NCBI GenBank assembly: GCA_009840355.1
Contig: VXNZ01000038.1
Location: forward strand, 1-36,173
Source: Chloroflexota bacterium
Lineage (GTDB): Bacteria > Chloroflexota > Dehalococcoidia > Lucifugimonadales > JADFKI01
Direction: 5' to 3'
Length of the DNA: 36,173 nt
This document shows, one piece after another, positions 53 to 35,361 of this stretch; within the stretch, counting starts at the first letter, position 1; every line of letters starts with the position of its first letter. Below the pieces are notes generated by a model. The model was not told the origin of the DNA. It saw only the letters and a program-made list of their open reading frames with translations, and ran no database searches. The position numbers and the translations under genes were made by a program.

Positions 53-73
53 TTTTGAAATTGTCTTGTGGAT

Positions 74-254
74 GAGACGATTTCACAAATGCAATTTATA
101 CCTGTCATTTGCGGTCTATACCTGTCATTTCGAGCGAGGCGAGAAATCTAAAGTCGGAAACAGGGTTGCGTGCAACGATTTCAGATTCCTCACTGCGTTC
201 GGAATGACAAAGACAGCGCGGAATGACAACATTAGGGATTTGTGGAATCGTCTC
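74..254 (+). repeat. MITE-like dispersed element, copy 1
   Basis: Terminal inverted repeats are GAGACGATTTCACAAAT at 74-90 and its near-complement at 238-254 (one mismatch). Inside are two subterminal arms, GTCATTTCGAGCG... and ...CGTTCGGAATGAC, which are themselves roughly inverted, so the whole element is a long imperfect palindrome. The 6-mer GTGGAT occurs immediately outside both ends (68-73 and 255-260), as expected of a target-site duplication. An inner stretch (TATACCTGTCATTT) is duplicated in this copy. No transposase is encoded, so it is non-autonomous if mobile. Confidence 0.85.
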
Positions 255-298
255 GTGGATTCAGGACTTTAGGGCTGTGCATAATTCGTCATTTTCCC

Positions 299-1276: not shown

Positions 1277-1640
1277 GTCGATTTATGGCATTTGGGGTTG
1301 CGTGGCGTTGGCTTTGCCTCTTTCCTAGCCTTCCCACTAGGAGGAAAGACGATTTCACAAATGCAATTTATACCTGTCATTTCGAGCAAAGCGAGAAAAC
1401 TAAAGTCGGAAACAGGCTTGCATACAACGATTCAGATTCCTCACTGCGTTCGGAATGACATGGGAGTTGGTTCGGAATGACAAAGACAACGCGGGATGAC
1501 AAAGACAACGCGGAATGACAACATTAGGGACTTGTGAAGTCGTCTCGGGGAAGGGGCTATTTGGGCGGCTGCGCCAATGGCAATCTGCGGCGTGGTATAA
1601 TTAGCGTATAGAGCGAGTACCAAGTGCCGGAGGTCGCGCG
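1277..1640. other. Intergenic region with nested repeats
   Basis: No gene is seen. A degenerate hairpin repeat (1315-1345) is interrupted by MITE-like copy 2 (1346-1546), and purine-rich GGGGAAGGGG follows directly at 1547. A TATAAT hexamer at 1596-1601 could be the -10 of a promoter for moaD, but no good -35 stands 16-18 nt before it. Confidence 0.6.
1346..1546 (+). repeat. MITE-like dispersed element, copy 2
   Basis: It begins AAGACGATTTCACAAATGC and ends with the inverted version (CTTGTGAAGTCGTCTC). It carries the same inner arms as the other copies, plus an extra GGAATGACA-type repeat near the 3' end. It sits inside a copy of the C/G-rich hairpin repeat, so it arrived after that repeat. 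Confidence 0.85.
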
Positions 1641-7481: not shown

Positions 7482-7506
7482 AACTCGGTTGTTGCCTGCG
7501 CCCTGT

Positions 7507-7552
7507 TATCCCTCTACCCTGATTGGGGGAAGGCTAGGAGCTGGGAAGAGGG
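7507..7552. repeat. Degenerate C/G-rich hairpin repeat
   Basis: A CCCTCTACCCTGATTGGGGG...GGGAAGAGGG arrangement gives a long imperfect inverted repeat between the convergent propeller and dtd genes. It resembles the hairpin family at 13-52 and could help separate the two transcripts. Confidence 0.55.
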
Positions 7553-8495: not shown

Positions 8496-8532
8496 TTTCT
8501 CGCCCTCAGGGGGAAGGTTGAGAAGGGGGCAA
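8496..8532. repeat. Degenerate C/G-rich hairpin repeat
   Basis: CGCCCTCAGGGGGAAGGTTGAGAAGGGGG resembles one arm of the hairpin family at 13-52. It lies just after the purL stop codon and before the fmdB promoter. Confidence 0.5.
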
Positions 8533-8581
8533 TGGTATAGGCAATTCGCAAGTCCCAAGTGTGCTGTGCAGTAAGATTTGC

Positions 8582-12908: not shown

Positions 12909-12930
12909 CGTACAATCCTAACTACTCTTG

Positions 12931-13091
12931 GAGACGATTTCACAAATCCCAATATCGTTATTTCGCACTATTTTTGTCATTCCGAACGCAGTGAGGAATC
13001 TGAAATCATCGCACGCAAACCTGTTTCCGACTTTAGATTTCTCGCTTCGCTCGAAATGACAGAGAAAAAATTGCATTTGTAAAGTCGTCTT
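12931..13091 (-). repeat. MITE-like dispersed element, copy 3 (inverted)
   Basis: This copy is the reverse complement of the others and is the shortest (161 bp). One end is GAGACGATTTCACAAAT (12931-12947), the other TTTGTAAAGTCGTCTT (ending 13091). The inner arms (GTCATTCCGAACGCAGTGAGGAAT and TCGCTCGAAATGAC) match the family. The stop codon of gltX (complement of 13090-13092) overlaps this end. It is the only separator between gltX and yqeY. Confidence 0.85.
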
Positions 13092-14583
13092 ACTTCCGGG
13101 CGGCTGTTGCGACATCCAGGCTGTCCCGCGCGTCCGCTATCAATGTGAGGCTGCGATCGCGTCCCAGCACTTCCAGCGATTCGAAGAGCGGCGGCGCGAT
13201 TCTCTGTCCCGTCGTTGCCACGCGCAGAGAGCCGAAGAGCTGCCCCGCTTTCACATCAATCTCCTTGACCATGCCGCGCAGCAGGGCTTCGATTGATTCG
13301 GCGTCGAAGTCGGGCAGGTTGGCAAGCCCGTCGTGCGCCGCTTCAAGGCACATCTGCGTTGATGCGACGTCCATCCTGCGCTGGATGAGTTCGTCCGGCG
13401 CGTACTCGATGTGTTCCTTGAACAGGAAGGCGACTAGCGGCGCGGCGTCTCGCAGCGTCTTCATGCGTTCTTGCACTAGCGGGACGATTTTCAGCGCAAG
13501 CTCGCGCGACGGCAGGCTGGGTATTTCCGGCGGCGGGTATGCTTGCCAGAAGTTTAGAAGCGCGTCCGCGAGTTCGTTTGCGCTCATCTCGCGGATGTAG
13601 TGGCCGTTCATCCAGTCGAGCTTTTCCGTATTGAATATCGCGCCCGCCTTGGACACGCGCTCGATGGAGAAATTGGCGATTAGGCTTTCGGTCGAGAACA
13701 GTTCCGTCTTGTCATCGAGCGACCAGCCGAGCAGCGTCAGGAAATTGACCATTGTGTGCGGCAGGTAGCCCATCTCGCGGTATTCGAGCAACGATGTCGC
13801 GCCGTGCCGCTTGCTGAGCTTGGACCTGTCCGGCGCGAGAATTATCGGCAAGTGCGCGAACTGCGGCGGTTTCCATCCCAGCGCGGCGTAAAGCTGTAGG
13901 TGGCGCGGTACGCTCGGCAGCCATTCCTCGCCGCGCAGCACATGCGTAATCCGCATCTCGTGGTCGTCAACCAAGTGCGCGAGGTGATATGTCGGGTATC
14001 CATCCGACTTGAGCATCACGAAGTCGTCCACCAGACGATTCTCGAAGGTGACCTCGCCGCGCACGAGATCGTCGATGGTGGTCGTGCCTTCGAGTGGCAT
14101 CTTGAAGCGCACGACAGGGTTTTCGCCGCGCGCGCGCAGTTCGAGTTCGAGCGCATCGCGCTCTTCATCTGTGAGACTGCGGCAGCGGCGGTCGTAGCCT
14201 GTCGTATTCTGCTGCTTGGAGCGTTGCTTGCGAACTTCAATCAGCCGTTTCGGAGAGCAGTAGCACTTGTACGCGAAGCCGGATTCGATGAGCCGGTCGG
14301 CGTACTTCGCATACAGCGGCAGGCGTTCGGACTGCTTGTACGGCGCGTATTCGCCGCCGATGTCCGGTCCTTCGTTCCATTCAAGCCCGAGCCATTTCAG
14401 CGCTTCGATGATGACTTCGACGGCACCATCGACGGCGCGTGCCCGGTCGGTGTCTTCCACGCGGACGATGAACTCGCCGCCGTGCCGTTGCGCCAGCAGC
14501 CAGTCAAATATGGCTGTGCGGATGTTGCCTACATGCGGTTCGCCCGTCGGACTTGGCGCAAACCTAACGCGAAAGTCGCTCAT
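13090..14583 (-). CDS. gltX: Glutamyl-tRNA synthetase GltX
   Basis: The 497-residue class I synthetase charges tRNA-Glu. It shows the HIGH-type motif HVGN (17-20), the zinc-site pattern C107-x-C109 ... Y130-x3-C134, WLPSVPRH and the KMSKS-type motif KLSKR (255-259). The C-terminal anticodon-binding part is complete. The ATG at 14581-14583 has GGAGG 10 nt upstream. The stop TAA lies on the boundary of MITE-like copy 3, so the last residues or the stop itself may come from that insertion. The gene could be discriminating or non-discriminating GluRS; sequence alone does not say. Confidence 0.96.
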   Translation of the reverse strand: MSDFRVRFAPSPTGEPHVGNIRTAIFDWLLAQRHGGEFIVRVEDTDRARAVDGAVEVIIEALKWLGLEWNEGPDIGGEYAPYKQSERLPLYAKYADRLIESGFAYKCYCSPKRLIEVRKQRSKQQNTTGYDRRCRSLTDEERDALELELRARGENPVVRFKMPLEGTTTIDDLVRGEVTFENRLVDDFVMLKSDGYPTYHLAHLVDDHEMRITHVLRGEEWLPSVPRHLQLYAALGWKPPQFAHLPIILAPDRSKLSKRHGATSLLEYREMGYLPHTMVNFLTLLGWSLDDKTELFSTESLIANFSIERVSKAGAIFNTEKLDWMNGHYIREMSANELADALLNFWQAYPPPEIPSLPSRELALKIVPLVQERMKTLRDAAPLVAFLFKEHIEYAPDELIQRRMDVASTQMCLEAAHDGLANLPDFDAESIEALLRGMVKEIDVKAGQLFGSLRVATTGQRIAPPLFESLEVLGRDRSLTLIADARDSLDVATAARK

Positions 14584-23422: not shown

Positions 23423-23462
23423 TTCCATTCCCTCTTGACGCGGGAAGGTTAGGATGGGAAGT
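23423..23462. repeat. Degenerate C/G-rich hairpin repeat
   Basis: ATTCCCTCTTGACGCGGGAAGG followed by TTAGGATGGGAAG resembles the family at 13-52, here between two minus-strand genes. Confidence 0.5.
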
Positions 23463-27318: not shown

Positions 27319-27656
27319 GGTCTTCCGCCGCTATTGTCCACCGCCGTAAGCCGCTGCTGCGCTGCCCCGTTCGATAGCGGTGATTTTCTTGTTTCGCGTT
27401 CTGTGATGCAGGCGCTATGTCAGCGCCATAATGTGATTTCACAGATGCAATTTATGCCTGTCATTTCCAGTGAAGCGAGACATCTAAAGTCGGAAACAGG
27501 TTTGCATGTTACGATTTCAGATTCCTCACTGCGTTCGGACTGACAAGAAAAGGCGCGGAATGATAAAGACTGCGCGGAATGGCAAAGACGGCGCGAGATG
27601 ACAACATTGGGGATTTGTGAAATCGTCTCAACGCGCTTGGCCGGTGCAACACGATG
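27319..27656. other. Intergenic region dominated by a MITE-like element
   Basis: The stretch between two convergent genes holds MITE-like copy 4 and otherwise only short flanks. No gene or terminator is recognised. Confidence 0.6.
27432..27629 (+). repeat. MITE-like dispersed element, copy 4
   Basis: The left end has drifted (TGTGATTTCACAGATGC), while the right end is intact (GGATTTGTGAAATCGTCTC). Inner arms are as in the other copies, with additional GCGGAATG-type units near the 3' end. No target duplication is recognisable, as expected of an older copy. Confidence 0.8.
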
Positions 27657-29751: not shown

Positions 29752-29879
29752 CGTCATTCCTGTGAAGCATGTCCTCGACCCTGATCGGGGAACGGGAATC
29801 CAGAGCCGTAAGATGGAGCCGAAGGCTTCCAATAATGCTATCTGCGAACCACTGGATTCCTGCTTCCGCAGGAATGACG
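29752..29879. repeat. 128-bp element with long inverted arms
   Basis: The left arm begins CGTCATTCCTGTG... and includes GGAATCCAG; the right arm is CTGGATTCC-TGCTTCCGCA-GGAATGACG, ending at 29879. The right arm is itself a short hairpin. A second arm occurs at 31838-31865, and a related hairpin (CCCTGCCTTCGCAGGG) is embedded in MITE-like copy 5. It is a dispersed repeat; it encodes nothing. Confidence 0.75.
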
Positions 29880-29933
29880 GGCTGAAAATCAGAAATGTCC
29901 ACAAAGCTTAGAAGCCTATCGCCGGAATGGATG

Positions 29934-31722: not shown

Positions 31723-31837
31723 TTAATCACTTCGAATTGGTGTTAGAATTGTTCGGACTTGCTGACATACAATGTCGGGAAGTGCGAGTGTTCTCTATAA
31801 GCGCTGATAATGTAAATTGGACCTGACCACAACGGCA

Positions 31838-31865
31838 CTGGATTCCTGCTTTCGCAGGAATGACG
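31838..31865. repeat. Solo arm of the 128-bp repeat
   Basis: CTGGATTCC, TGCTTTCGCA and GGAATGACG repeat the right arm at 29852-29879 with one base changed in the loop. A solo arm suggests excision or a truncated copy. Confidence 0.75.
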
Positions 31866-31934
31866 ATTCGATAATCAATACGTGCCAAGAATACCGGAAG
31901 TACGAGCCACCTCGACAAGTCTAGATATTAGCTC

Positions 31935-32565: not shown

Positions 32566-32643
32566 ATCGCGAGACCTCCTAACTGATTGCCGCCCCGCAT
32601 TTTATAGGAAATCGCGCATGGTTTGCCAGAGTGCTGTTAATTC

Positions 32644-32849
32644 AAGACGATTTCACAAATGCAATATGTACCCTGTCACTTCGAGCGGAGCGAGAAATCT
32701 AAAGTCGGAAACAGGTCTGCGTGCAACGATCCCTGCCTTCGCAGGGACGTGCTTCAGATTCCTCACTGCGTTCGGAATGACATGGCAGTAGGTTCGGAAT
32801 GACAAAGATAGCGCGGAATGACAACATTAGGGATTTGTGAAATCGTCTC
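32644..32849 (+). repeat. MITE-like dispersed element, copy 5
   Basis: It begins AAGACGATTTCACAAATGC and ends GGATTTGTGAAATCGTCTC. The 6-mer GTTAAT occurs 2 nt before the left end (32636-32641) and directly after the right end (32850-32855), a candidate target duplication. A segment with a small hairpin (CCCTGCCTTCGCAGGG) is inserted inside compared with the others. Confidence 0.85.
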
Positions 32850-32850
32850 G

Positions 32851-33054
32851 TTAATCTGCTGGTAACTTGCGGAGCGCCTCGGTCACCTGAGCCACTGGAT
32901 GAGCCACTAGATGCGCCGTCCTTATGTGCTTCTGGAAAAGCCTCTCAATCGTCGAATACATGCTCTCGGTATTGCTTCTGCTTGAAATACCGATCGAATG
33001 CGCTCTGGTCCTTATTCCTTGTCCTTTGGCGGAGAGTGTTGCGTTGACACTGGG
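32851..33054 (-). pseudogene. Possible transposase C-terminal remnant
   Basis: The minus strand after the LRR stop codon stays open for 67 codons in the same frame. It encodes SNTESMYSTIERLFQKHIR and Q-V-T-E-A-L before a TAA at 32851-32853. The pattern N-x-E-x-x-x-S-x-I-x-x-x-F and later Q-x-x-E-A-L recalls the end of IS5/IS1182-type DDE transposases, where the Glu is catalytic. There is no start and no other part. It lies next to MITE-like copy 5. Tentative. Confidence 0.3.
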
Positions 33055-35200: not shown

Positions 35201-35266
35201 AACCTGGAATGTGCCATAAGTTACACCAGAATGCTCATATCCACAAGAGCGCTGGCTCGTGTGAGA

Positions 35267-35361
35267 AATATGCAAAAGTCCCTTCCCTCATCAGGAGGAA
35301 AGGCTAGGGTGGGAGGGGTGAAACTTCCGTCAATTGTCCTAAATGTACCCTTTTGCATATT
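35267..35361. repeat. 95-bp element with perfect 12-bp terminal inverted repeats
   Basis: AATATGCAAAAG (35267-35278) and its exact complement CTTTTGCATATT (35350-35361) enclose 71 nt. The inside contains a degenerate C/G-rich hairpin repeat (CCTTCCCTCATCAGGAGGAAAGG and a GGGTGGGAGGGG tail). It may be another small mobile repeat or a hairpin flanked by pairing arms. Confidence 0.6.

Follow-up and report, generated by a model that had tools for sequence, protein, structure and literature searches.

Palindromic repeats in the window

The window, the whole 36,173-nucleotide stretch of DNA that was analysed, is contig C38 of a 3.28-Mb genome (57 contigs) from a marine SAR202-type bacterium. It contains five repeats of 161-206 bp, all of them intergenic, which have ends of the form RAGACGATTTCACAAAT and its complement. 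Their inner arms are themselves inverted and form long hairpins (z of -4.9 for copy 1 as DNA and -5.4 for copy 3 as RNA).

68..73, GTGGAT, target duplication, left flank of copy 1
74..254, plus strand, MITE copy 1, 181 bp, with ends GAGACGATTTCACAAAT and its inverse
255..260, GTGGAT, target duplication, right flank of copy 1
1346..1546, plus strand, MITE copy 2, 201 bp, without a clear target duplication
12924..12930, ACTCTTG, decayed target duplication at copy 3 (ACTTATG at the empty site of the sister species G002)
12931..13091, minus strand, MITE copy 3, 161 bp, site empty in G002
13092..13098, ACTTCCG, decayed target duplication at copy 3
27432..27629, plus strand, MITE copy 4, 198 bp, with an eroded left end, site empty in G002
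32636..32643, GTTAATTC, target duplication at copy 5, the same as the G002 empty site
32644..32849, plus strand, MITE copy 5, 206 bp, containing the optional inner hairpin CCCTGCCTTCGCAGGGACGTGC, site empty in G002
32850..32857, GTTAATCT, target duplication at copy 5, with 2 changes

All five copies proposed in an initial annotation of this DNA are present, copy 3 on the minus strand, and the complementary ends and inverted inner arms described there were also seen, the left end of copy 4 being eroded to TGTGATTTCAC. The flush GTGGAT claimed for copy 1 matches at 6 of 6 positions, and the duplication said to lie near both ends of copy 5 takes the form GTTAATTC and GTTAATCT. An Rfam search of the repeats matched no family, and a literature search gave no match to the palindrome sequence.

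Copy number and target duplications

The 16-base end AGACGATTTCACAAAT has 237 matches in the 3.28-Mb genome when up to three mismatches are allowed, compared with 5 for the reversed control; consequently, the five repeats are not due to chance. A BLAST search with copy 1 pointed to 193 candidate places in the genome, and the long matches among the 40 that were scored are 75-95% identical to copy 1. Both searches show that the further copies sought as a check on the initial annotation exist, and the number of elements in the genome is of the order of 100. The 237 ends imply a genome average of roughly one element per 28 kb, and the five in 36 kb (about one per 7 kb in the initial annotation) therefore represent a local cluster. 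Nor do the data show that the spread was recent, as had been suggested, given the divergence of the copies from copy 1 and the mutations already present in the duplications at copies 3-5.

Elements were extracted as paired ends from the loci sampled (n=69; first batch, n=43), and permuted flanks provided the chance level for target duplications. Flush duplications above threshold flank 29 of the 69 elements, when 0.58 (about 0.6) would be expected by chance, and 21 of the 43 in the first batch, when 0.47 would be expected, which upholds the earlier reading of these duplications as a sign of transposition. Their length is variable, ranging between 5 and 10 bp and most often 7-8 bp; perfect duplications span 5-9 bp, and there is in addition one 9/10 match. 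The 9/9 duplications include AAGTAATAC, TGTTAGATA, and GTGGATTCA, and others are ATACTAAT, CGCGTTC, AACTGAT, and GTGAGC, among further examples. A strong motif is absent from the insertion sites across the 69 elements. In the remaining 40, either the duplications have decayed or the elements were otherwise formed. The elements are 97-291 bp long, and the longest open stretch without a stop in any of them is 80 codons, in agreement with the annotation of the copies as gene-less.

Empty sites and distribution of the ends

In the region of the window, a sister species, G002 (SB0664_bin_29), shows 90-94% identity and is without copies 3, 4, and 5. At the site of copy 3, G002 has AACTACTTATGAGCGGCTG, corresponding to AACTACTCTTG, copy 3, and ACTTCCGGGCGGCTG in the window; at the site of copy 5, it has CCAGAGTGTTGTTAATTCGTGCAG, corresponding to CCAGAGTGCTGTTAATTC, copy 5, and GTTAATCTGCTGG. 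The copy 4 site in G002 is a single uninterrupted stretch. Furthermore, copy 2 is missing from the syntenic intergene of three other genomes (G001, G003, and G004). Empty homologous loci in relatives, on which the mobile reading had been made to depend, are thus found for copies 3, 4, and 5.

Taken together, the additional copies, the excess of duplications, and the empty sites support the mobile reading. The five repeats are transposed non-autonomous mini-elements (MITEs): they are short and non-coding, and the family has 17-bp TIRs, target duplications, and empty sites.

Among the genomes sampled, the 17-mer end (up to one mismatch) is restricted to this genus; outside it, only 1 of 392 other genomes of the class matched, with a single isolated match. 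Paired ends are present in contig records of SB0664_bin_29, SAR202 bin90 (G001, obtained from the sponge Aplysina aerophoba [PMC5649159]), IRC4_bin_30, and a Gammaproteobacteria-labelled contig of SB0662_bin_2. The MITE on this last contig (VXNY01000017.1, locus L170, 3522-3673) is about 98% identical to the L057 element of the window's own genome (G000) and has its own duplication, TTTTCA; either it was transferred between symbionts of sponges, or the contig belongs to SAR202 and was binned wrongly.

Exchangeable interiors

Alignment of the elements reveals conserved ends and a modular middle. Both halves of one palindromic core, composed of GTCATTTC/GTCATTCC hairpins, are present in 49 of the 69 elements, one half in 5, and other interiors in 15, of which at least L142 is probably a false pair. 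In 18 of the 69, a 22-nt hairpin, CCCTGCCTTCGCAGGGACATGC, is present as an optional part. Thus, interiors of different kinds move between one set of ends, and in about one element in five the interior is unrelated to the main core.

The minority interiors mostly contain GTCATTCC...GGAAT or CCTTCCCCC palindromes of the CGTC-type REP. This type has a CGTC tag, an 8-9-bp stem starting from AT, a loop of 4-5 bases, and a CCA tail; no transposase gene is associated with it, and Chloroflexi are not among the hosts reported in a 2013 survey (PMC3733652). Interiors such as those of L040, L035, and L123 fit this description, whereas the main core departs from it in having a TGTC tag and an imperfect stem. 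Two free repeats in the window (29850-29891 and 31836-31877), which read CGTC-ATTCCTGC-loop-GCAGGAAT-CCA, also agree with it in tag, AT-starting 8-9-bp stem, short loop, and CCA, and are CGTC-type REPs, a type that the same survey had not reported for Chloroflexi (PMC3733652).

Two further sets of palindromes were noted. G002 carries a MITE subfamily of its own, with the same ends and the interior palindrome CCCGCGCAGG / CCTGCTTTCGCAGG, often at contig ends (for example, L123 4009-4205 and L125 743-914). A second palindromic family, CCTAACCTTCCCCC...GGGGGAAGGGA, is very abundant in G004, is nested within the MITE cores of L017, L039, and L056, and is found in the window as follows.

17-66, 290-334, 1323-1349, 7506-7539, 8500-8534, 23424-23458, and 35264-35313, second palindromic family

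The repeat at 17-66 finishes in AAGACAATTTCAAAAGTCCC, which is a variant form of the MITE end. The sequence GTGGATTC (window 255-262, L004, and L057), beside this second family, has received several MITE insertions and is possibly a hotspot.

Elements with the same ends that carry tnpB

The congeneric species G001 (SAR202 bin90, MPND01) has two gene-bearing elements with the MITE ends, 85% identical to each other and at different loci. No other gene-bearing element with these ends was found in the genus.

G001 C99:2215-3595, tnpB element, 1381 bp, TSD TAAGGT (6 bp)
G001 C182:497-1878, tnpB element, 1382 bp, TSD ATACACA (7 bp)

In both, the 17-bp inverted ends are perfect or near-perfect, and the homology between the two extends exactly from end to end. 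A degraded third copy on G001 C19 has kept the junction of the tnpB 3' region with the end. When 1.23 Mb were scanned for pairs of RAGAC...GTCTY that lie 0.6-3.6 kb apart and have an exact 6-10-bp duplication, the two tnpB elements were the only matches with matching ends.

Each intact element has a single gene, tnpB, of 394 codons, which matches guided_TnpB NF040570 at 195.6 and 214.6 bits (cut-off, 100) as well as Pfam PF07282 and PF01385. Its closest solved relatives include ISDra2 TnpB (8bf8), and alignment with 8bf8 reveals the catalytic D/E/D (GIDMGV, AVEDLQ, and EDADINAA) and a CxxC...CxxC zinc finger. The catalytic residues of an active nuclease are therefore intact, and nuclease activity is predicted. 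Between the two copies dN/dS is 0.135 (dN 0.08, dS 0.59), indicating that the protein was under selection as the copies diverged. Directly past tnpB, AGAAACTTCACGC is invariant in the three copies, and its TTCAC is able to pair with GTGAA of the element end in two of the three; folding of the putative guide RNA gave z values of -1.9, -0.3, and +1.5, none of them significant.

Many more TnpB-type genes and fragments, without these ends, are present in G001 (L179-L192). TnpB matches in this genome number 17 in all, most of them 28-65% identical to the element TnpB, and no pair of MITE ends was found around the others that are 39-65% identical. The window's own genome has one TnpB, which is distant and without these ends.

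The search for a transposase

It had been postulated that a transposase elsewhere in the genome drives the spread, but none with these ends was found, and the only full element encodes TnpB. As for the full transposon with the same ends that the annotation proposed to look for, a full-size element exists in a related species (bin90), but its gene is tnpB and not a transposase. Among candidates, IS256 (PF00872) loci in the window's own genome, G001, G003, and G004 lack these ends, even with gaps allowed, and none of 30 DDE_Tnp_1 (PF01609) loci in five genomes is flanked by a pair of them. A transposase that adjoins one end on G002:C240 has no second end. A seeming 1.36-kb element at L140 (G000:C46, 4041-5401) resolves into two distinct small elements with a host gene between them. 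A search of G001, G003, and G004 for inward end pairs 0.7-4 kb apart (up to three mismatches) gave nothing beyond the two tnpB elements. The transposase could be hidden by contig breaks in these draft MAGs.

Only the ends are common to the MITEs and the tnpB element, so the former did not arise from the latter by deletion. The data are explained most economically by one unseen transposase that mobilises several kinds of cargo (the core, other REPs, and tnpB) between the same ends. TnpB is not known to act as a transposase and is unlikely to be the mover; by analogy, it could plausibly be a retention nuclease.

A model for the family and its alternatives

These results have led to the hypothesis, which we hold with considerable confidence, that the five repeats belong to a cut-and-paste MITE family moved through its 17-bp ends by a transposase acting in trans, and that one branch of the family carries tnpB. 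In this model, the transposase would bind the inverted ends RAGACGATTTCACAAAT, and any sequence between them would be inserted at staggered cuts, giving rise to the 5-10-bp target duplications; the mover would be, we infer, a DDE enzyme. The RNA-guided nuclease of the tnpB branch would probably serve as a retention device: it may cut a vacated site again, and repair would then bring the element back. What the MITE family displays is inverted ends, target duplications, empty sites, and exchangeable interiors. Against the model count the searches that found no transposase with these ends, the duplication length, which is more variable than in most DDE families, and the 40 of 69 elements that have no duplication above threshold. 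A more specific version, which we advance tentatively and at slightly less than even chances, is that TnpB moved from IS200/IS605 into a bacterial TIR/TSD family, where the end would supply the 3' portion of the guide-RNA scaffold, re-cutting would retain the element, and the MITEs would be gene-less passengers of the same transposase. The invariant AGAAACTTCACGC and its possible pairing with the end are a hint of this, although the fold lacks significance.

Improbably, the repeats could be REP/BIME palindromes that owe their spread to a tyrosine transposase of the Y1 type (RAYT/TIRYT), instead of DDE-moved TIR transposons. The interiors with GTCATTCC...GGAAT hairpins do resemble CGTC-REPs, and long TIRs flank some RAYT-like genes elsewhere (PMC3733652). 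However, conservation lies in the 17-bp end rather than in the hairpin. Furthermore, flush 5-10-bp target duplications are observed, and Y1 transposases of the IS200/IS605 kind are not known to produce them.

There is a still slimmer chance that TnpB itself drives insertion, with the element filling guided staggered cuts. Such cuts would account for duplications that range from 5 to 10 bp, the catalytic residues are intact, and tnpB is the sole gene found between these ends. Yet the insertion sites share no motif that could act as a TAM, the single distant TnpB of the window's genome is without these ends, and, in published work, TnpB is described as a nuclease dispensable for transposition (PMC8612924). 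Finally, static regulatory or RNA elements (such as mRNA hairpins) multiplied through recombination or gene conversion would fit the intergenic, strongly folding copies and the lack of an Rfam family, but are already contradicted by the clean empty sites as well as by the target duplications, and have hardly any likelihood left; a secondary regulatory role following insertion is possible.

Relation to known systems

The Correia elements of Neisseria are abundant palindromic MITEs of about 100-200 bp with TATAGTGGATTAA-type ends and a TA duplication; the SAR202 elements are similar in abundance, palindromic structure, and size, but their ends differ. The MITEs of Haloquadratum walsbyi are mobilised in trans, in some cases with the transposase missing or broken (PMC3119063). 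They are likewise short and gene-less, with inverted ends, and the likeness presumably extends to a duplication set by the trans-acting transposase and interiors unrelated to the autonomous element (PMC3119063), whereas for the SAR202 elements no autonomous partner was found in the genomes searched, the interiors are exchangeable and consist of CGTC-type palindromes, and the duplications vary from 5 to 10 bp. CGTC-tagged REPs, which include Neisseria dRS3 and Rickettsia RPE-4/RPE-6, share their tag-stem-loop-CCA form with the interior hairpins and the free repeats of the window, but are 20-40 bp long and without TIRs or duplications (PMC3733652); the SAR202 palindromes sit inside TIR/TSD elements.

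In the survey of Bao and Jurka, bacterial TnpB-only elements are without TIRs and TSDs, and Fanzors reside in eukaryotic TIR transposons (PMC3627910). The G001 elements resemble the TnpB-only elements (IS1341 type; IS200/IS605 group) in having one gene for a guided_TnpB of 394 aa with intact RuvC residues, but depart from the IS200/IS605 or IS607 type in having both TIRs and TSDs. In this respect, they are like the Fanzor1/Fanzor2* TIR transposons, non-autonomous TIR/TSD elements that encode only a TnpB-type nuclease; the Fanzor1 element of the SfAV ascovirus is of this kind, and its transposon family is unassigned (PMC10711439). However, the host of the G001 elements is bacterial, and the protein is a bacterial TnpB, not a Fanzor. 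No report of a bacterial TIR/TSD element carrying only tnpB was found in a search of mainly open-access literature; there, the combination is described for eukaryotic relatives of TnpB, not for bacteria.

Significance

By itself, the MITE family adds one more example to a known class; what is unusual is the link between tnpB and a TIR/TSD element. The exchangeable interiors indicate that CGTC REPs, which are said to lack a dedicated transposase, can move as passengers between borrowed ends. If the TnpB reading is true, it parallels the entry of Fanzors into the TIR transposons of eukaryotes, and the tnpB elements, once confirmed, would be a bacterial counterpart of Fanzor-bearing TIR transposons. 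They would then also offer a simple system for testing how an RNA-guided nuclease fits its guide RNA to a transposon that leaves target duplications.
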